IMG/VR virus record: IMGVR_UViG_3300009408_000041 | Span: 1 to 20,552 of that record | Direction: 5' to 3' (one strand) | Origin: a virus | DNA length: 20,552 nt | Part shown: positions 3,054-20,552 of the stretch, piece after piece | Layout of the letters: each line of letters begins with the position of its first letter | How positions within the stretch are numbered: the first letter of the stretch is position 1 | Program-made: the position numbers and the translations under genes | Notes under the pieces: generated by a model | The model's database searches: none | Seen by the model: only the letters and a program-made list of their open reading frames with translations | Told to the model about the DNA's origin: nothing

Positions 3054-3499
3054 ATCAAATTCTCCATATCGATTTGATGAGTGGTTGAAAAGATTTCAGC
3101 CCAAAAGGTAATGGGCTTTTTAATTTTTAGTAAACGTGATCCGGCCAGCACCAGCGGTGTGTAACTGTCATTAACCGATTTGGGTACAAAGCCAAATAGC
3201 TTTTCGCGCACGGCTAAACGTTTTTCTTTTAATATTGCTGCTGTCTTTTCGCCATCACCATCATTAACCTGTTTAATGGCCATAATCACTGCAAACAATT
3301 GTTGCTCTATTTGCACGGGGGTACCCATATCACGGCTGTTCTGTTTTGCATTGGTTTTAAGCTCAATCACCCATGCTTGTGCATTACCTTTAATTTGCTT
3401 TTCCTGCATCACTGATTCGCTATCAATAGCTAAACTGACGCCTCTAAATGCATGACTGGCGATAAGCTCATTAATGATTTGTTGTGCGGTGTCGATCAC
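3050..3499 (-). CDS. Putative tail terminator / tail completion protein
   Basis: This 149-residue protein begins at GTG 3499 in a TAGTG overlap with the DUF1320 gene stop. It has the form of small α/β neck proteins (N-terminal helix IINELIASHAFRGVSL, central AWVIELKT strand, QQLFAVIMAIKQ helix) that occupy this place, between the gp36-like adaptor and the tube, as DUF1834 (Mu gp37) does in Mu. Tail terminators cap the tube and join it to the head. I see no diagnostic motif, so the call rests on position, length and predicted fold. Confidence 0.55.
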   Translation of the reverse strand: MIDTAQQIINELIASHAFRGVSLAIDSESVMQEKQIKGNAQAWVIELKTNAKQNSRDMGTPVQIEQQLFAVIMAIKQVNDGDGEKTAAILKEKRLAVREKLFGFVPKSVNDSYTPLVLAGSRLLKIKKPITFWAEIFSTTHQIDMENLI

Positions 3500-3915
3500 T
3501 ACATGAACCCATTGTCTTTTCGGCTAAACACGCTGCCTGAATGTTGCATGGTGGCTGAGTTGTTGGTCTGTGGTTTACTGCCACTGGTGTTTATGCCTAA
3601 GCCTGCTTTGCCAGTGCTGACATCGCGTAAAAACTTGGTGGCGCCATCAAAGCGTTTGTTAACGTCATCGGTTGGTGAGTCGTACAAGCCGTAGTGAACT
3701 AGATCACAGGCTATTTTATTTAAAATGGGTGGTATTTCAGACAATGGCAGTGTGTAACGGCTGGATAAGTAGCTTTCAATAAAACCACTGGCATCTATGA
3801 TGGCTCGTGTTACTTGTGTGGATTCAATCTCTTCAGTGCCATGCTCATCGGTTAAGTCAATAAGCTCTTGCTCACCAAATCGATCTATTAAGTCTTGTAC
3901 TGTGCAATATGTCAT
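3499..3915 (-). CDS. DUF1320 family head-tail adaptor (Mu gp36-like)
   Basis: The 138-residue protein starts MTYCTVQDLIDRFGEQELIDLTD, recognisable in pieces as the DUF1320 opening (QDLIDRFGEQEL), and continues with AIIDASGFIESYLSSRYTLPL and IACDLVHYGLY, the conserved helices of the family. DUF1320 proteins are related to gp6-type neck adaptors. It is the first gene of the connector-tail module. The ATG has no Shine-Dalgarno and lies about 7 nt after a CATAAT box, so its mRNA may be leaderless. The tail after residue 105 is polar and low in complexity. Confidence 0.88.
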   Translation of the reverse strand: MTYCTVQDLIDRFGEQELIDLTDEHGTEEIESTQVTRAIIDASGFIESYLSSRYTLPLSEIPPILNKIACDLVHYGLYDSPTDDVNKRFDGATKFLRDVSTGKAGLGINTSGSKPQTNNSATMQHSGSVFSRKDNGFM

Positions 3916-3966: not shown

Positions 3967-3999
3967 AGGGTATTGGAGATGTAGGGACTACTTTTTAGG

Positions 4000-4082
4000 T
4001 TGTAGGTTGTGGGTGATAACCCCAACAAAACAGTAACGTGGCCACTGCTGTTGGGGGTTCATTCTTCACCCACAACTTACAA
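4000..4082. repeat. Long interrupted inverted repeat between fibre block and tail module
   Basis: The arms TTGTAGGTTGTGGGTGA (4000-4016) and its near-complement TCACCCACAACTTACAA (4066-4082) pair at 16 of 17 positions. An inner pair AACCCCAACA / TGTTGGGGGTT extends the stem, with GTGGCCAC near the apex. There is no T-tract on either side, so it is not a standard intrinsic terminator, though it lies after the last fibre-block gene and before the next promoter, where a transcription block would be useful. Confidence 0.7.
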
Positions 4083-4091
4083 AAATATAAA

Positions 4092-4376
4092 TTAGTGGCC
4101 TGAGTTTTTAATTCTAATAACGATTTGTTCGTGTAACATTTCGCCGTTGCTTGTGGTTATTTCATTTTCTAGTTCGTAGTCTTGGTCTAAAGTTCCACCA
4201 CTTAATTTAATGCCCACTGACATTCCACTCACAGCCACTTGATCTTGAGTGATGCCTGCAGGCACTGTCCAACTGCTTGTGCTGATGGATGCGCCTTGCA
4301 GCTCATCAGCGCTCCATTGCATCCAGTACCACTTAACTGAGTCTGAATGTTTAGGCGGGGCATTTTTTATGGACAT
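4092..4376 (-). CDS. Fibre-tail adaptor-like small β protein
   Basis: This 94-residue protein has the pattern W-x-x-D-E-L-Q then SSWTVPAGI, LSGGTLDQDYELENEITTSNG and a final I-x-I strand. The pattern (D/E-x-I-x-SSTWTV, LSGGT-x-x-x-Y-x-L-x-N-x-ITT) is widespread in phage small structural proteins annotated as fibre-tail adaptors. It is the last gene of the block of structural genes after the capsid genes. It starts 3 nt after the previous stop with no good Shine-Dalgarno, suggesting translational coupling. Its position on the particle is not known. Confidence 0.6.
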   Translation of the reverse strand: MSIKNAPPKHSDSVKWYWMQWSADELQGASISTSSWTVPAGITQDQVAVSGMSVGIKLSGGTLDQDYELENEITTSNGEMLHEQIVIRIKNSGH

Positions 4377-4379
4377 AAT

Positions 4380-4889
4380 TTAAGCGGCTGTTTCGAATTT
4401 CACTTCAATGACACTGCTGTCACTGTTATAAGCAGATGCGGCTATTGCAATATCTCGACGAACCCAAATTGCTTTCCATGATCCGGCTGGAATGTCCCCA
4501 ATCACTAATGCATTGGCTTCTAAATTTGATTGGGTGAAGACAACAGCGGCAGGAGCCGTATCTTCATCTGCTATGGTTTGTTCTACACCGCCGATGGCTG
4601 ATGAACCTAAACCAATCAGCTCATCTGAGTCGGCACTGGGTGATTCGGTTTTAACGTAAACCTTTGCGGCTAACATGGTCAGTGTGCCATGATTGTTTTT
4701 AATGTAAAAACAACGGTATTCGCTGTCACCAGCGGCGGCTTCATAGCCACTCACAATATCGAATAAGTTATGCAGAGATGCATTGACTATGGCATTGGCA
4801 CTGATTATGCCACCTAGGGCTAAATCGGGGTTGGCATTGGCAACGCCGCCACTGAGTTGAAATGAAATGTCTGCTTGTACGATTGGCAT
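4380..4889 (-). CDS. Phage structural protein of unknown position, 169 aa
   Basis: AGGAG precedes the ATG at a good distance. The sequence opens with LSGGVANANPDLALGGIIS, contains EYRCFYIKNNHGTLTM and ends with an AGSWKAIWVRRDI segment. This set of segments is one I associate with a conserved family of phage virion proteins found beside fibre genes; it looks all-β and has no signal peptide or membrane segment. It is probably a particle-surface or fibre-associated component made with its neighbours at 4092 and 4898. I know of no established function. Confidence 0.55.
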   Translation of the reverse strand: MPIVQADISFQLSGGVANANPDLALGGIISANAIVNASLHNLFDIVSGYEAAAGDSEYRCFYIKNNHGTLTMLAAKVYVKTESPSADSDELIGLGSSAIGGVEQTIADEDTAPAAVVFTQSNLEANALVIGDIPAGSWKAIWVRRDIAIAASAYNSDSSVIEVKFETAA

Positions 4890-4897
4890 AATGGCTC

Positions 4898-5665
4898 CTA
4901 ATGAACGCTAAAAATGCGTTGTTCTGGTTTAATGGGGATGACTCTTTGTTCTGGTTTAATGGGGATGACTCTTTGTTCAGGCTTTATCAGCATGATTTGA
5001 GTTGGTGTGAATTGCAGGCCATCGACTGACCATAAAAATGACACGCTACTTTCTGACAGCTCTAAACCATCCCAAATTAAATCTGCCTCTGCAGACACGT
5101 TGTTTAAAATTTGATGCTGAATTTGAAGGTCTGCTACCACGATGTTGGCCAAGTGCCAGGACAAGTTTGTTTGCTTATTAATGGTTTGTAATAAGTCCGA
5201 TCGGGTTTCTAACGTCGCGGCAATAGCATGACGAATATCAAACTTTGTGTTCAAACTAGCTGTGACAGATTGCAGGGCTGAGTTAAGGTTCCACACTAAG
5301 CCTACGTTTTGATTCACGTTTTCACGAATTGACCATTCAGTGTCTAAATCTGCTGTGATGACTTGGAGTACTTGGTATTGAATGTCTAAACTGGCATTGG
5401 TGGTTTTTAATAAAGCCCAAGCTGCTTGAACGTCTTGTGTGACTGTTTTAAGAATCTGCTGGGTTAAGGTGACATTGTTAGTGATGCTGTTGAGCATGTC
5501 ATAACGTAATTCAGTTGATGCGATTACGTTTTGGTTTGCGCTCCATTCAAGACTCAAATCATTGCTAATAATTTTTTTAGCATCCCAATTCAAAGCAATG
5601 GATGATGTGACAGACTGATTACCACCTTGACCTGCTTTCTTTAAAAAAATAGGGAATAGACGCAT
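4898..5665 (-). CDS. Repeat-built structural protein (about 14-16-residue units)
   Basis: The 255-residue protein is made mainly of degenerate units with a hydrophobic/aromatic pattern: SLEWSANQNV, LRYDMLNSIT, LTQQILKTVT, LDIQYQVLQVIT, LDTEWSIREN, VGLVWNLNS, LNTKFDIRHA, LETRSDLLQT, LSWHLANIVV, LQIQHQILNN. Such L-x-W-x-I-L-x-x-V repeats occur in other phage structural proteins near fibre genes, and each unit could be a β-hairpin or strand-turn of a long shaft. The C-terminus has perfect tandem copies of the 9-mer KPEQRVIPI coded by 27-bp DNA repeats, a place where copy number could vary. Function is not known; a fibre shaft or spacer is my inference. Confidence 0.6.
   Translation of the reverse strand: MRLFPIFLKKAGQGGNQSVTSSIALNWDAKKIISNDLSLEWSANQNVIASTELRYDMLNSITNNVTLTQQILKTVTQDVQAAWALLKTTNASLDIQYQVLQVITADLDTEWSIRENVNQNVGLVWNLNSALQSVTASLNTKFDIRHAIAATLETRSDLLQTINKQTNLSWHLANIVVADLQIQHQILNNVSAEADLIWDGLELSESSVSFLWSVDGLQFTPTQIMLIKPEQRVIPIKPEQRVIPIKPEQRIFSVH
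4921..4987. repeat. 27-bp tandem repeat, two perfect copies plus a diverged partial copy
   Basis: Units 4921-4947 and 4948-4974 are identical, followed by a partial copy (4975-4987, GTTCAGGCTTTA against GTTCTGGTTTAA). The unit length is a multiple of three and encodes the 9-residue repeat at the C-terminus of the 255-residue protein, so copy changes would keep the frame. Confidence 0.9.
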
Positions 5666-5666
5666 T

Positions 5667-6419
5667 TTAATAGACTTCTAGAAAACAATTCGGATTATCA
5701 GACCACATTTTACGTTCTGCTTTACTTAGTGCGCGCTCCCAAATATCTGTGGCATCTTGTGTTCCTGTGTAGCGTCCTTTGTCAGAGTTATCCGCATATA
5801 GTCCATTATTACAAATACCCGCGTTTACAGCCCAATAATCAAAATAAGTACCCGTTGCTGCTACACCATCAATCTCAAGAGTATTTACTACGCTTCCCGT
5901 AACTTGACTTGTAGTTGCTATAGCTCTATAGAGCGTGTCGTATAGAATGATTTCGCTTAACTTTGGCGCTCCGGCATTCCCTGATCTATACGCATTTTGC
6001 ACATAGCAACGCTTCCAGTCATCAACTAAAATAGCGATCCCAGTTGGTATATCTTTGTTTGCAGTTCCGTGATTATGCGATGCCACTATGTTGCAATACT
6101 GATTATCATTAACTTGTATTTTAAAACAGCTTGCAACTGTAGCTTCTGCAAGAACAAGCGATTCATCGAAAGATAACTCATCAAAATTATCTTTATTTAA
6201 ACTAAGCTGTCCTGCCGAATTAATCTTTGGTTCTCCGCTCGTGTTTGCAAGCTTTTTGCTGCTCACAACGTCATAAAGTCCATTTGCAGCATATCGATAA
6301 CAACGACACAATCCCGCGCTCAATGGATGACCTTTTTTAACACGCACACGCTGAAACGGTCTATTGCCCATTCTCATTAATGCTGGTGATTGAAGTTTTT
6401 GTGGCATCAAAAGACTCAC
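5667..6419 (-). CDS. LamG/concanavalin-like phage structural protein
   Basis: GTG at 6419 is preceded by GAGG at 8 nt; an alternative ATG lies four codons later. The 250-residue protein has features of phage LamG-like (laminin G / concanavalin A) domains: GLYDVVSSKKL early, strands such as ATVASCFKIQV and a final DIWERALSKAERKMW-x-DNPNCFLEVY. The W-x-RALS-x-AE-x-x-x-L-x-x-x-P ending is typical of LamG modules in phage virion proteins. It is likely a carbohydrate-binding or surface-exposed structural component. Its stop overlaps the approach to the repeat protein gene, so the two are probably co-translated. Confidence 0.65.
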   Translation of the reverse strand: MSLLMPQKLQSPALMRMGNRPFQRVRVKKGHPLSAGLCRCYRYAANGLYDVVSSKKLANTSGEPKINSAGQLSLNKDNFDELSFDESLVLAEATVASCFKIQVNDNQYCNIVASHNHGTANKDIPTGIAILVDDWKRCYVQNAYRSGNAGAPKLSEIILYDTLYRAIATTSQVTGSVVNTLEIDGVAATGTYFDYWAVNAGICNNGLYADNSDKGRYTGTQDATDIWERALSKAERKMWSDNPNCFLEVY

Positions 6420-6872
6420 TTATACGTCCTCGTAGCCACCGTCGGACACTTCATAAGTTAATGTATTATTTGTTGCTGCTAATGCTTGCCCCGTTTCGTT
6501 AATTAAAAGAATGTGATAATTACTATTGGGCAGTACAATAGGGAGAGGCGTTACGGCATCACGTGCAGACGTATTGGCATCAAAATTAAAGACATGCGCT
6601 AAATGCTCTGGCGCTGGATCTAACACATCACTTCCATACGCATGTGATCCACCTTCTTCAGGTAGAAAGAACATAGAAATAGAAGCATTTGCTTTTCGTG
6701 CTGCACCTTGCAATTCTAAGTGCAAACGAAACATTGAAAACAGGTCCCGTTCTGCAACTAAACTATTTGAAATGGGTGCTGATGTTATTTTATTCGCATC
6801 GTTTGCTAATGCATTTAATTCAGCAGAAAAAATAGTGATACTGGCATTTTTAGCTGTGTATTTTGCAACCAT
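6420..6872 (-). CDS. Phage structural protein, jelly-roll-like, 150 aa
   Basis: The gene begins at ATG 6872 in a TAATG overlap with the upstream stop. The sequence is β-rich, with SITIFSAELNALAND near the start, ISMFFLPEEGGSHAYG in the middle and LPNSNYHILLINETG near the end. The pattern resembles a family of small phage virion proteins that I have seen beside LamG-like genes; no enzymatic motif is present. It sits in a tightly packed operon with the LamG and repeat proteins, suggesting one assembly. Function is inferred from context only. Confidence 0.5.
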   Translation of the reverse strand: MVAKYTAKNASITIFSAELNALANDANKITSAPISNSLVAERDLFSMFRLHLELQGAARKANASISMFFLPEEGGSHAYGSDVLDPAPEHLAHVFNFDANTSARDAVTPLPIVLPNSNYHILLINETGQALAATNNTLTYEVSDGGYEDV

Positions 6873-7276
6873 TATAAAGCTCTCGCTTTCATGAGCTTGC
6901 CAACGCTAATATGTGGGTATTTTAATTTAGTAGTGGTTGCTCGTGCTATTAAGTCTTGCTTTGCTGGTGTTGTAATTAATCCCGCAGCTTCAAGGCCATT
7001 AATCAGTAGCATAACTTCGGGATCGGACAGGTCTAGATTTGAATTAATATTTTCAAGGTTGCTTCGTGCGGCGGCTGCTAGTTCGTATGCAACATGCCCA
7101 TAATCTTCTGAGGCCATCATAATGGCTTTGCGTGCGCTATTAGCCGCTGCCCATTTGTTAAGTTGGGCCGAAGATAATGTATTGAAAACCTGCTTTGTTT
7201 CAACCTTCATTGCATCAAAAGCAACTTGAAGATCCCCTCCGGGATCTCCTGTTTTAATATCATCTAATCGTGACAT
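6872..7276 (-). CDS. Phage protein of unknown function, 134 aa, helical
   Basis: AAAGG lies before the ATG and the gene ends in a TAATG overlap with the next. The product is mostly helical: SAQLNKWAAANSARKAIMMA, then DLSDPEVMLLINGLEAAGLITTPAKQDL (two pieces, LSDPEVMLLINGL and GLITTPAKQDLIA). The second half looks like a small helical domain found in uncharacterised phage proteins. It opens the six-gene block inserted between the gp35-like and gp36-like genes. A chaperone or particle-associated role is possible, but nothing in the sequence decides it. Confidence 0.5.
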   Translation of the reverse strand: MSRLDDIKTGDPGGDLQVAFDAMKVETKQVFNTLSSAQLNKWAAANSARKAIMMASEDYGHVAYELAAAARSNLENINSNLDLSDPEVMLLINGLEAAGLITTPAKQDLIARATTTKLKYPHISVGKLMKARAL

Positions 7277-7279
7277 GAG

Positions 7280-7618
7280 TTATGCCTTTTTAGCATTAAA
7301 CAATTTAAAAGCTTGATCACGTTGCTTGGCATTGATGTTAATGCCCGTGGCTTTTTCTAATGCTTTTACTTCGGGCTTGTTGCTTTTTGTCCAGTGTTCT
7401 TTATTGCCTTTTTCTAGTTTGCCAATGGCTTCTACTAATTGGGTGATGAGCGGATCAACTTCTTCAGAATTAACTTCTTCTATCGAAAACATGGCGTCAT
7501 CATCTAGCTGTTGCCATTGCTTTTCTGTTAGATCGTCTTGCTCTAAAACAGTTGTGCCAGCCCATGCTCGGCCTGCGCGACGAAAACCATCTTTTTTTGT
7601 TGTTACTGAAATTTTCAT
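7280..7618 (-). CDS. HI1506-related / Mu gp35-like protein
   Basis: The 112-residue protein begins MKISVTTKKDGFRRAGRAW, the characteristic opening of the HI1506 / Mu gp35-like family (K-I-x-V-x-x-K-x-x-G-F-RRAG), followed by a region like LTEKQWQQLDDDAMFSIEEV. The C-terminal 45 residues (PEVKALEKATGININAKQRD) look like a second small helical module. It lies directly after the major capsid gene as in Mu. The role of the family is not established. Confidence 0.75.
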   Translation of the reverse strand: MKISVTTKKDGFRRAGRAWAGTTVLEQDDLTEKQWQQLDDDAMFSIEEVNSEEVDPLITQLVEAIGKLEKGNKEHWTKSNKPEVKALEKATGININAKQRDQAFKLFNAKKA

Positions 7619-8791: not shown

Positions 8792-9190
8792 TTAAATTTC
8801 AATCCAAACGCCATCGGCGTCTACATCTACAATTGTTCCGGCTACTGATCGTGTAGCAACGCCATCGTTGTCTGCGACTGTTTGGTCATCGACTATGTAA
8901 GCTGTTTTTTTAATGTCTACACGAGCGATTGTTCCGTCATTTGCAAACTGAAAAACACCTTTACTGCTTTGGATAGTTTCATCACCATCGGCACCTGATG
9001 AGTTATCGACGTACTCTTCTGCACGACCGCGAACGGTTAAAGTCGTAGAAGTTGCACCCGGTACGGCATTGCCGTTGGCATCTAAACAAAGAATAGAGCC
9101 AGCAAATATTTTGGTTGCTGCTGCTACAGGGTCATTGTTTTCTTTGCCTGCGCGCCAAGGGGTGTTTTTATCTTGAGTTAATGCAGTCAT
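8792..9190 (-). CDS. Capsid cement / decoration-like protein
   Basis: The 132-residue protein starts at ATG 9190 in a TAATG overlap with the protease gene, with GGAGG upstream. It is β-rich and begins with a PVAAATKIFAGSILCLDANG segment, as in phage head cement proteins of the DUF2190/capsid-cement type. These lie between scaffold/protease and major capsid genes in many phages, and trimers of the family stabilise the expanded head. The match is by pattern and position (Mu gp33 place). Confidence 0.65.
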   Translation of the reverse strand: MTALTQDKNTPWRAGKENNDPVAAATKIFAGSILCLDANGNAVPGATSTTLTVRGRAEEYVDNSSGADGDETIQSSKGVFQFANDGTIARVDIKKTAYIVDDQTVADNDGVATRSVAGTIVDVDADGVWIEI

Positions 9191-9678
9191 TATTTATCCT
9201 CCGCTAAGGTTTTTTTGTAATCTTCAGGATCAATACCCATGCCTTTACACACGGCTAAATCTGTATCATTTAGCTCATTGCCTTCTTCGCCTTCAGGTGT
9301 TTTGCCTTTGGTTTGATCGCCATTAAGAGCTGCAATTTTTGGTGCTTTATCGATAAAGCCTTTTAACGCCACCATGTCTGTTTGGCCTAGTGATGTAGCC
9401 CAATCTTTTTGAACGGGTAATAACTTGCCATCACTTAAAGCTGTTTCAACGATTGCATTAACTTCATCGCTGTCATTTTTTGCCGTAAGCGCTGCCAAGT
9501 CTGTTTGCATGGATTTAATAATGGCCATTGCATCATCGGGTGTTTCTGCTTTAGCAGCTGCAATAGCGACTTCAGAATCTTTGTCTTTTTTGACTAAAGC
9601 AGTTAAAGCGACTTGCACTTGTTCATCACTTGCGTCTTTTTCAAGACCCAGCAATGCACGAATTTGTTCAGCATTCAT
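9190..9678 (-). CDS. Z: Scaffold protein from an internal start (Mu Z-like)
   Basis: An in-frame ATG at 9678 (residue 188 of the protease) is preceded by GAGG at 8 nt, a good internal ribosome binding site. It gives a 162-residue product beginning MNAEQIRALLGLEKDA and rich in alanine, lysine and acidic residues. This matches the nested Z scaffold of Mu, made from the 3' part of I, and the λ C/Nu3 arrangement. The internal site seems too good to be accidental, though expression is inferred. Confidence 0.75.
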   Translation of the reverse strand: MNAEQIRALLGLEKDASDEQVQVALTALVKKDKDSEVAIAAAKAETPDDAMAIIKSMQTDLAALTAKNDSDEVNAIVETALSDGKLLPVQKDWATSLGQTDMVALKGFIDKAPKIAALNGDQTKGKTPEGEEGNELNDTDLAVCKGMGIDPEDYKKTLAEDK

Positions 9679-10239
9679 TGAGTTTTCCTCTTGGGGTTGT
9701 GTGATTAGTTGAAAAGAAAATTTTGCGGCAGCTTGTGCTTGTAGTTCGTCCATGCCATCGATGGCGGCATAGTTGGTGATTGCGCCCATGATGATGTCGT
9801 AGACTTCACCAGTTAGTTTGTTAAAGACCATGACAGGGCTAAAGTATTTGTATTCTTTAGTGTCTATTTTAGATTTGGCTGCATCCGTCCATTCGGGCGT
9901 TACAAAAAAACCTTCGCCTGATCGCCACTCGATATCTGCACCATTAATCCAACCTGCTGCAGGGGCTGGTTGGCCATTCTTTTCTGCGTTTAATGTTTGG
10001 TGTTCGTAGTCTATGACCATTTGGTCTTGACGTGCTTTAAGTTTGGCTAGAATTTTGGGGGCAGTTTCATCGGTGATGAACCATTGGCCAGCCACATGAG
10101 GACGACCATCTTTAGCAGAAAAACTGCCTGCAGGCGTTAGTTGAATAGCACCCGTTGAAGAAAGTGAAAAGCGGCAGGCCGCGATAGCAACTTCAGGCTG
10201 GTATGTTTTGATTTTGTTTTGTGCTGGATGACCGTACAT
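9190..10239 (-). CDS. I: Mu I-like head maturation protease with scaffold domain
   Basis: The 349-residue protein corresponds to Mu I. Residues 15-165 form the protease domain with AIAACRFSL, IQLTPAGSF-x-x-x-DGRP, MVIDYEHQTL (residues 74-83) and YKYFSPVMV. After residue 188 comes a helical, acidic scaffold region. In the family the protease cleaves the scaffold and itself during head maturation. The ATG lacks a Shine-Dalgarno and lies at the expected start of the transcript from the TATTAT box, so initiation may be leaderless. It is the first gene of the head module after the interruption by the plus-strand gene. Confidence 0.9.
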   Translation of the reverse strand: MYGHPAQNKIKTYQPEVAIAACRFSLSSTGAIQLTPAGSFSAKDGRPHVAGQWFITDETAPKILAKLKARQDQMVIDYEHQTLNAEKNGQPAPAAGWINGADIEWRSGEGFFVTPEWTDAAKSKIDTKEYKYFSPVMVFNKLTGEVYDIIMGAITNYAAIDGMDELQAQAAAKFSFQLITQPQEENSMNAEQIRALLGLEKDASDEQVQVALTALVKKDKDSEVAIAAAKAETPDDAMAIIKSMQTDLAALTAKNDSDEVNAIVETALSDGKLLPVQKDWATSLGQTDMVALKGFIDKAPKIAALNGDQTKGKTPEGEEGNELNDTDLAVCKGMGIDPEDYKKTLAEDK

Positions 10240-10245
10240 GCGGCC

Positions 10246-10290
10246 ATAATAGGGAGAGTGGTTCTTTTAGTGACCCGGAATGGGCTTCCG
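10246..10290 (-). promoter_or_regulatory. Putative late promoter for the head module (Mu PI analogue)
   Basis: The palindrome CGGAA-TGGGC-TTCCG (10276-10290) is followed on the minus strand by GGGTCACT and a TATTAT box (10246-10251). The box is placed exactly as in the tail promoter: 25 nt between TTCC and the hexamer. A dyad near -44 without a -35 element is what is known for Mor/C-activated Mu promoters. The ATG of the protease gene lies about where transcription would begin. Confidence 0.7.
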
Positions 10291-10384: not shown

Positions 10385-10912
10385 ATGAGCAATCAACTTA
10401 ACGTAGCATTAAATAGTGATTTAATGAGTATTGAAGACATTAAGTTACTCATGATAAATATTACTATCGCCATTTCATCAGGCAAAGGATCGACTCCATT
10501 AATGATAAAACAGTTAGAACTCGATGGCAGCGCTCCTTTACGTTATTTTTTAGGTCATCACGATAAGCCTTTTACTCATGCACAACAAAAATTTGTAGAG
10601 GCTATTTGGCCAATCACATTTAAAAAACGTTTATCTCTTATTAAAAATATTTGGGTAGAAACGCCTAATTGGAGACCGAAAAATCCACATACAACCAACC
10701 TTGACTTAAAACAATCAACCTTAGACATAGAGTTTATTAAAAGCTTTGGCGTACCTCTAACAATTTGGGATACCCAAGTGTTTAATTCATCAAGCTTAAT
10801 ATGTCGTGTAAAAAAAGGTATTTCAACTCATGCCGATCTCGTTCGTGCCTATGCTTCTTTGGCTATTTTTGGCTTTTTAGAACCTGATATGTTTTTTACA
10901 GCCAATCATTGA
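10385..10912 (+). CDS. Orphan plus-strand gene within the head module, 175 aa
   Basis: This gene opposes all its neighbours and sits between gpG and the I protease, which are adjacent in Mu. TTAGGGAT lies about 9 nt before the ATG. The product is soluble, without signal peptide or membrane segment. A central block KFVEAIWPITFKKR then IKNIWVETPNWRPK is striking, and the C-terminal part (ISTHADLVRAYASLAIFGFL) is probably helical. I do not recognise a family. By eye it is more AT-rich than the head genes. Position, orientation and its own promoter candidate mark it as a moron: an accessory gene, possibly expressed in the lysogen, for host fitness, exclusion or regulation. Confidence 0.75.
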   Translation: MSNQLNVALNSDLMSIEDIKLLMINITIAISSGKGSTPLMIKQLELDGSAPLRYFLGHHDKPFTHAQQKFVEAIWPITFKKRLSLIKNIWVETPNWRPKNPHTTNLDLKQSTLDIEFIKSFGVPLTIWDTQVFNSSSLICRVKKGISTHADLVRAYASLAIFGFLEPDMFFTANH

Positions 10913-18511: not shown

Positions 18512-18877
18512 TTATCTATGCCCCTTATAAAAAACAGAGTAGTGGTTTCCGTCTTTAAACTGTCCGCCCCAAGAAAATAAAGGATGTAACGATTCCCAAT
18601 ATTCACCCAAAAATAAATGGTCTGATGTGTCTGTTAAATAATTGCCGTCTTTAAATAAATTAAGGTCAATGGCAAGTCGTCGCTTGTGATTACTTTCTTG
18701 TCGGCCATAGCCTTTTTGCTCTGCCGTTGTGCCGAACACACGAGAATCACGAAAGCCATCACCCAGTGTTAGTTCATAACCATTGACATAGGCATACTGA
18801 ATTAACAGGGGTAAAAAGCGCATGAATAGGCGCTGGGTTTCACCGAGTGATAATTTGTTTTTAATTGATTTTTCCAT
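18512..18877 (-). CDS. M15-family peptidoglycan endopeptidase (endolysin)
   Basis: The 121-residue protein has the M15 (VanY/D-Ala-D-Ala carboxypeptidase-like) motifs: GFRDSRVFG, then SNHKRRLAIDLNLF with H and D seven apart, and WGGQFKDGNHYSV with the second metal-binding His. Such single-domain enzymes cut peptide stems of murein. There is no signal peptide, so release depends on the adjacent holin. The ATG has no Shine-Dalgarno and is 37 nt from the palindrome, as for the other late operon first genes. Confidence 0.88.
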   Translation of the reverse strand: MEKSIKNKLSLGETQRLFMRFLPLLIQYAYVNGYELTLGDGFRDSRVFGTTAEQKGYGRQESNHKRRLAIDLNLFKDGNYLTDTSDHLFLGEYWESLHPLFSWGGQFKDGNHYSVFYKGHR

Positions 18878-18888
18878 AGCGCCAGTGT

Positions 18889-18928
18889 GCTATGAAAGGT
18901 GTTTAGTTTGACTCGGAAGGGGCTTCCG
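18889..18928 (-). promoter_or_regulatory. Putative late promoter for the lysis-packaging module (Mu Plys analogue)
   Basis: The most symmetric of the three palindromes, CGGAAG-GGG-CTTCCG (18914-18928), lies upstream of the endolysin gene. On the minus strand it is followed by GAGTCA, matching GGGTCA in the other two. The -10 is less clear here: CATAGC (18889-18894) is a weak candidate and is 5 nt closer than in the other two. The distance of palindrome to ATG is the same as at the I gene. Confidence 0.6.
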
Positions 18929-19029: not shown

Positions 19030-19767
19030 ATGCTTAAATCACTTTCTATTTTATTTCTTTCTTCGATTTTTATCTTTTCATTATCGAGTTGTGCAAAAGG
19101 CCCGACAACTGTAAAAGAACTTACCGCACCTTTAAATCGTATATTCGCGAAAGAAACTCATATTATATCACCCAAAAGAAACACTATTGCTAAACGCACT
19201 ATTGGTGAAAAACTAATACTATCATTTCGTCAATATGAGAGTGAAGGCATTGACATTAAAACGGATATTAAAGTTGCAGGGAAATATAGAGGGTATGATA
19301 AATTATATTCCCTAGAAAAAGGTAAATTTAGTTTAAGGTATAAAACAGATAAGGGTAATTTTTATGTCCCTAATAAATCTATGTTGGAAATAACAGGTTC
19401 AGGAGAAAACACATCATTAGATGGCGGTTTATATATTAACAATAATACTGATCAATATATTTATTTTGTTATTAAAGGAAAATACTATTATCAGCAACTA
19501 GTTAATAAAATTACTTATGAGCAGACAATTGTCTCTAATATTATTCCAAATCAGTTTCAACAAACTTTAGTCTATAACGGTACTGTTAAAGGCATTGTAT
19601 CGCTTAACTATCAAGAGTTTAAAGGAAAGATGAAACGTGACGCATTCTCTCAAGATATAAAATATGATTTAGCTGAAGGGAATATCATTCAATATAAAAA
19701 TGCAAAAATTGAGGTGATTGAAGCTAAGAGTAATTCCATTACTTATAAAGTATTAAACCCGTTTTAA
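19030..19767 (+). CDS. Predicted outer membrane lipoprotein, accessory (moron) gene
   Basis: GGAGG lies 5 nt before the ATG. The 245-residue product begins with two basic/polar residues, a hydrophobic core (ILFLSSIFIFSL) and a lipobox LSSC with Cys21, followed by A at +2, so it should be lipidated and sent to the outer membrane. The rest is rich in Lys, Tyr, Asn and Ile and looks β-stranded; I do not recognise a family. The gene is clearly more AT-rich by eye than the phage genes around it, is on the opposite strand and ends at a REP-like hairpin. It is a candidate lysogenic conversion gene, for instance in surface change or exclusion of superinfecting phage. Confidence 0.82.
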   Translation: MLKSLSILFLSSIFIFSLSSCAKGPTTVKELTAPLNRIFAKETHIISPKRNTIAKRTIGEKLILSFRQYESEGIDIKTDIKVAGKYRGYDKLYSLEKGKFSLRYKTDKGNFYVPNKSMLEITGSGENTSLDGGLYINNNTDQYIYFVIKGKYYYQQLVNKITYEQTIVSNIIPNQFQQTLVYNGTVKGIVSLNYQEFKGKMKRDAFSQDIKYDLAEGNIIQYKNAKIEVIEAKSNSITYKVLNPF

Positions 19768-20107: not shown

Positions 20108-20552
20108 TCACGATTGCTCCTCGCGTTTAATAAAACGACGAACACAGCTTTCTGATCGGCCTGTGATGGTTGAAATTTGGGCAAATGATTTACCTTCGTG
20201 GTGCAGGTGTTTAATTTGTTCTTTTTCTATAAAAATTAACGGCGTTTTGACGGATTGCTTGGCTTCTAACAAGCCACATTCAACCATATCGACTTTAATG
20301 TGTGACACCTTGGTTTGTGATATTTGCAATAATAAGGCAATTTCACGAACTGATAGCTGTTTGTTAAGGTATTGACTGACTTGGTTAAACTCAGGCCGTG
20401 CTTTTAATAGAGCTTGGGTTAGCTTTTTTTCAGTGCTGCTGGGCGGTGCTAGGGCTAAATTAGCATCAAAAGCGCGAATAACGTGCAGGTGAAACTTGGC
20501 GGATACCCACATGGCGTATGCATAGACCAGTTCTTTGCAAACGTAGGTGCCT
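20108..20552 (-). CDS. KilA-N domain regulator with helix-turn-helix, N-terminus outside window
   Basis: The frame is open to the right edge. The visible start GTYVCKELVYAYAMWVSAKF, followed by HLHVIRAFDA, is the C-terminal half of a KilA-N domain. Therefore ATG 20512, which gives 134 residues, is internal and not the true start. After a linker come a helix-turn-helix segment (LSVREIALLLQISQTKVSHIK) split as SVREIALLLQIS and TKVSHIKVDM, and a second one (HHEGKSFAQISTITGRSESCVRRFI in pieces GKSFAQIST and SESCVRRFI). Such proteins act as phage DNA-binding regulators or antirepressors. Confidence 0.82.
   Translation of the reverse strand, partial: GTYVCKELVYAYAMWVSAKFHLHVIRAFDANLALAPPSSTEKKLTQALLKARPEFNQVSQYLNKQLSVREIALLLQISQTKVSHIKVDMVECGLLEAKQSVKTPLIFIEKEQIKHLHHEGKSFAQISTITGRSESCVRRFIKREEQS

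Follow-up and report, generated by a model that had tools for sequence, protein, structure and literature searches.

The source record is a virus fragment of 20,552 bases, analysed here over its whole length (the window). A terminase search gave a Mu-like relative, L008; the two terminases are 75% identical and the gene order of L008 is that of the window. In the window, genes for an M15-type endolysin, the head maturation protease (gene I) and a head-tail adaptor (gp36) are each preceded by a dyad and a -10 element.

18914..18928, minus strand: dyad CGGAA-GCCCC-TTCCG, candidate activator site of the lysis promoter, then GAGTCA to 18909
18884..18889, minus strand: -10 CACACT of the lysis promoter, 25 nt past TTCC
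18512..18877, minus strand: endolysin gene, M15-type (PF13539), first in the lysis unit; ATG 37 nt past TTCC, no Shine-Dalgarno sequence (SD)
10276..10290, minus strand: dyad CGGAA-GCCCA-TTCCG, candidate activator site of the gene I (head) promoter, then GGGTCA to 10271
10246..10251, minus strand: -10 TATTAT of the gene I promoter, 25 nt past TTCC
9190..10239, minus strand: gene I, head maturation protease/scaffold (PF10123, E 7.6e-96); ATG 37 nt past TTCC, no SD
4092..7276, minus strand: six-gene block between a 112-aa gene (7280-7618) and gp36; not at the same place in L008
3954..3966, minus strand: dyad GGAAG-CCC-CTTCC, candidate activator site of the gp36 (head-tail) promoter, then GGGTCA to 3948; absent in L008
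3923..3928, minus strand: -10 CATAAT of the gp36 promoter, 25 nt past TTCC
3499..3915, minus strand: gp36, head-tail adaptor (PF07030, E 6.8e-37); ATG 38 nt past TTCC, no SD

The composite GGAAGCCC[C/A]TTCCG[G/A]GTCA occurs three times in the window and only before these genes, as the minus-strand copies GGAAGCCCCTTCCGGGTCA (3966-3948, gp36), GGAAGCCCATTCCGGGTCA (10289-10271, gene I) and GGAAGCCCCTTCCGAGTCA (18927-18909, lysis). No further matches were found in the window even with up to three mismatches, 100 dinucleotide shuffles of the window contained 0 copies, and GGAA-N5-TTCC was seen three times (0.26 expected) and nowhere besides these copies. The three palindromes described in an earlier, sequence-only reading of the window are therefore real, with two refinements: the gp36 copy has no outer C/G pair (TGGAA..TTCCG), and in the gene I copy it is the inner G/C pair that is missing (GGAAG..ATTCC), so that the constant dyad is GGAA-N5-TTCC. 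Besides the window and L008, the composite pattern had no noncoding match in IMG/VR. Matches in L021, L022, L024 and L025 were discarded, as all lie in coding DNA, and the match of L004 (viral_contigs, IMG/VR) to the exact motif, the sole other contig, sits inside a coding region and is due to chance.

The distances from TTCC to ATG were as first reported, as was the identical offset (25 nt) of TATTAT (10251-10246) and CATAAT (3928-3923), to which CACACT (18889-18884) in the lysis copy can now be added. No TTGACA-like -35 element is present at the three promoters, where the conserved GTCA occupies the -35 place and gives at best 3/6 matches by eye, and consensus scans of the window called no sigma-70 promoter at these sites. 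The dyad centre lies at approximately -44 from the inferred +1. This placement and the missing -35, both proposed previously, also hold in L008, and the geometry is the same across Mu-like phages. Two other classes of site were considered. An ECF sigma factor site (GGAAC..GTC) was ruled out: ECF promoters need a wider gap between GGAA-type and GTC-type elements than the 11 nt separating GGAA from GTCA here. Palindromes near promoters are often operators, but a repressor operator, or a dispersed repeat with no role in activation, is highly improbable, as the dyads sit ahead of the -10, which is not accompanied by a -35, rather than over it, and precede late operons only, and the exact motif is found in no other IMG/VR contig bar the one coding-region match.

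In L008, the sequences ahead of the lysis gene and of gene I were inspected, and both carry the element with the spacing of the window but with different spacer bases. The L008 lysis gene has GGAACCCTCTTCC-GAGCCA, CACAAT at offset 25 (equal to that of CACACT in the window) and ATG at 38, and gene I has GGAACACCCTTCC-GAGTCA, TAAGAT at offset 25 (equal to that of TATTAT) and ATG at 37. The dyads of the window and L008 share only GGAA-N5-TTCC and GRGYCA, and the remainder is therefore free to vary. The location of sites before lysis and gene I, which had been likened to that of Mu Plys and PI, thus recurs in a relative. The gp36 gene of L008 directly abuts its neighbour, and no site is present there.

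The third copy, the gp36 promoter of the window, would restart transcription behind the inserted block 4092-7276, which lies between the capsid region and gp36 and most of whose genes have no family matches (one is tail-like, phrog_6079, and one matches phrog_13135); a distant relative of one gene of this block was found after gp36 in L008. Between the block and the gp36 promoter, at 3995-4060, lies a long inverted repeat (CCCCCAACA / TGTTGGGG), which has no T run and was not reported by terminator calling on the window. Two plus-strand genes, at 10385-10912 and 19030-19767, lie just ahead of the promoters of gene I and lysis, respectively. They had no Pfam matches and look like late-arriving cargo genes; the latter starts like a lipoprotein.

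No SD was found before the endolysin gene, gene I or gp36, while several genes inside the operons do have one, and the last base of the -10 is only 6 to 7 nt ahead of the ATG at all three genes. Together, these features predict leaderless late mRNAs: the messages of endolysin, protease I and gp36 probably start at the start codon.

The resemblance to Mu is one of activator logic. The target of Mu Mor is a 16-bp element with its centre at -43.5, made up of two 5-bp repeats around a 6-bp G/C-rich spacer, and Mor bound there replaces the -35 (PMC4390567). The window has similar 5-bp inverted repeats, a short G/C-rich spacer and a -10, but differs from Pm, the middle promoter of Mu, in its half-site, its 15-bp element, its association with late operons and a predicted +1 that coincides with the ATG. 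In Mu, the genes under the control of the activator C are lys, I, P and mom (PMC4461284). As with C at Mu Plys and PI (PMC4461284), sites in the window lie ahead of lysis and of gene I, several late operons have a dyad family in common and an activator of the same Pfam family is expected; unlike those of the window, Mu C sites contain CATAAYCCC, and no promoter is noted before gp36 in Mu. Judging from oligonucleotides in PMC4461284 that reach 20 nt beyond +1, transcription from Mu PI and Plys starts ∼22 to 25 nt ahead of the ATG. Mu late mRNAs accordingly have leaders of ∼22 to 25 nt with SD-like sequences, in contrast to those predicted for the window, a point against the leaderless reading.

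A Mor/C-type activator of a late regulon had been proposed for these sites. The search for a Mor/C gene in the window found none, and L008, also a fragment, has no Mor-family gene either; as the 20.5-kb record covers only part of the phage genome, it does not show the activator of the window phage. Support comes instead from synteny and co-occurrence in relatives, as phages with the GGAA half-site carry a Mor-family gene. The Mor family of activators (PF08765) is represented in near-complete relatives that have GGAA-N4-TTCC sites; in the closest of these, L065 (gp29 60% identical), the Mor gene comes right before the site and endolysin. The family is present in 23 of 30 relatives, and the seven without it are fragments of 12 to 31 kb. 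A prophage of Acinetobacter calcoaceticus JUb89 has GGAA-N4-TTCC sites before lysis, gp29 and I. Among 99 Acinetobacter genomes, CGGAA-N4-TTCCG-YCTRAT occurs in 11 (reversed control, 0/99) and a Mor-family gene in 12, with both in seven (Fisher p=1.4e-5); wherever a genome has at least two sites, it also has Mor (6/6), and in the five genomes with both on one contig, Mor lies ∼9 to 11 kb beyond the outermost site. Exceptions are five genomes with Mor but without the exact site pattern and four with a single site but without Mor. The spacer is N5 in the window and N4 in the relatives in which Mor was seen. By eye, the C-terminal helix-turn-helix (HTH) segments of Mor seem to differ between the GAA-type and TAA-type dyad groups.

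The same late promoters might instead be served by a KilA-N/HTH protein that has replaced Mor. Just upstream of the lysis unit (20108-20552, minus strand), where Mor lies in L065, the record end truncates a gene for a KilA-N protein, of which a C-terminal portion containing two HTH motifs is left, and L008 has the end of an HTH-type protein at the matching place. However, L008 shows no evident counterpart of the second HTH found in the window, even though the two phages have the sites in common; relatives with GGAA dyads have Mor, and phage KilA-N proteins are usually antirepressor-type early proteins. We consider this replacement unlikely.

The same arrangement extends well beyond the GGAA group. 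Upstream regions of gene I were taken from 72 Mu-like loci (54 after dereplication), and inverted repeats (arms of at least 5) peaked at -44.5 from the ATG (11, versus 0.09 in shuffled sequences; 54 loci), close to the -43.5 of Mor in Mu. A second inverted repeat peaked at -9 to -11.5, around the -10. As both register and spacer are variable, the analysis relied on the centre profile; statistics on column pairs, calculated in a single fixed register, had not singled out any pair. The dyads vary (CGGAA..TTCCG, CTGAA..TTCAG, CCGAA..TTCGG, ACTAA..TTAGT-like, GGAGG..CCTCC) but their place is constant. In six control genes of the same phages, dyad, -10 and hairpin are absent, and most of these genes have SDs more often. 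One private dyad per phage recurs at both lysis and I, and relatives show that each such Mu-like phage appears to carry its own private version of the site. Only exact-arm copies were used, as a relaxed search (one arm mismatch) gave 38 "other" sites, many of them chance matches. The putative recognition sequence of the window, claimed previously to be new, does differ from the Mu half-site but is one of many private dyads.

A similar region is seen in Pseudomonas phage DMS3 (NC_008717), with a Mor-type late activator annotated upstream. As in the window, its gene I has a dyad (TGAACCCCTTCA) and a -10 (CACCAT), after which GGCGGC leads into an ATG at 19037. The half-site differs from that of the window, and the DMS3 record places the gene I start at 19163, 126 nt further downstream. 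In this stretch (19037-19163; L145:10038), the upstream ATG is in frame, and its position after the dyad, -10 and GGCGGC is exactly that seen in relatives. Gene I of DMS3 has probably been annotated 126 nt too short.

A separate scan with CGGAA-N4-TTCCG-CCTNA and a fixed ATG found at least 120 stretches; 45 dereplicated sites among the matches listed open a reading frame. At these 45 listed sites, a -10 is present at 43 and an SD-like 5-mer at one, and at 40 the -10 is bracketed by a repeat (five or more of six pairs), compared with a mean of 7 and a maximum of 15 in shuffles. Mismatches in this -10 repeat are G-T in 17 cases and A-C in 2 (p=0.0007; 45 sites among the matches listed), figures made optimistic by the relatedness of the sites, and the gene I set gave 13 G-T and 3 A-C. 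In most relatives, the -10 is placed in the loop of an inverted repeat that covaries and in which G-T mismatches are tolerated, A-C mismatches hardly so. The dyad has no such excess (4 G-T, 9 A-C). As G-T is in excess only in the second repeat, the dyad behaves as a DNA site and the second repeat as an RNA structure.

This distinction bears on whether the palindrome itself acts at the RNA level, as a hairpin within the 5' leader or within read-through RNA, to control translation or processing of a gene without an SD. Its arms could form a small hairpin with a loop of 3 to 5 nt, and the endolysin gene, gene I and gp36 indeed lack SDs. Nevertheless, arm sequence is fixed, not compensated, in the GGAA group, dyad mismatches show no G-T excess, and the constant distance of the dyad to the -10 and ATG suits activator geometry; such a role is quite improbable.

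The three sites are most likely late promoters of a Mu-like phage, bound at the dyad by a Mor/C-family activator encoded outside the fragment and giving leaderless first cistrons. The sequence and positions of the sites, their statistics and conservation, and the co-occurrence with Mor in relatives are direct observations, from which we infer dyad binding, activation, the exact +1 and leaderless translation. A dimeric Mor/C-family activator would bind GGAA-N5-TTCC centred at approximately -44, take the place of the -35 element and recruit host sigma-70 RNA polymerase to the -10 (CACACT, TATTAT or CATAAT). Transcription would begin at, or 1 to 2 nt before, the A of the ATG, and endolysin, protease I and gp36, each encoded first in its unit, would be translated from leaderless mRNA.

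The leaderless design and the private-dyad rule, both read from sequence, are the new parts; in the portion of the open-access literature covered, no description of leaderless late promoters in Mu-like phages was found. Mor/C activation has so far been known mainly from Mu. With a dyad centre ∼44.5 nt before an SD-less ATG and a -10 ending ∼6 nt ahead of that ATG as the rule, candidate late promoters can be located in many Mu-like phages and each matched to a Mor protein, which opens the Mor recognition code to comparison; the rule also suggests corrected gene starts, e.g., that of DMS3 gene I. It further suggests that lysis and head genes are translated from leaderless messages, and an RNA lock may act against read-through.

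The -10 repeat structure would be missing from a leaderless transcript and present in read-through RNA only. We tentatively suggest, as a possibility short of an even chance, that many Mu-like phages have one-unit leaderless late promoters that combine a private dyad coevolving with Mor, a -10 in the loop of a covarying hairpin and an ATG at +1. The hairpin in read-through RNA might then block the SD-less start, such that lysis and protease proteins would be made only from the activated promoter. The -10 hairpin is weak at gene I of both the window and L008 (3/6 pairs) and is for that reason not claimed for the window phage. In Mu, shortly before gene I, an inverted repeat (CTGCTCA..TGAGCAG) surrounds the I transcript start and recalls the hairpin of the relatives, shifted relative to the -10. 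In four Acinetobacter prophages (L051, L052, L055 and L056), the lysis promoter leads straight into a CCTCATC-N4-GATGAGG-TTTTTT hairpin containing the endolysin start codon, and this hairpin with its T residues looks like an attenuator or start-codon lock.
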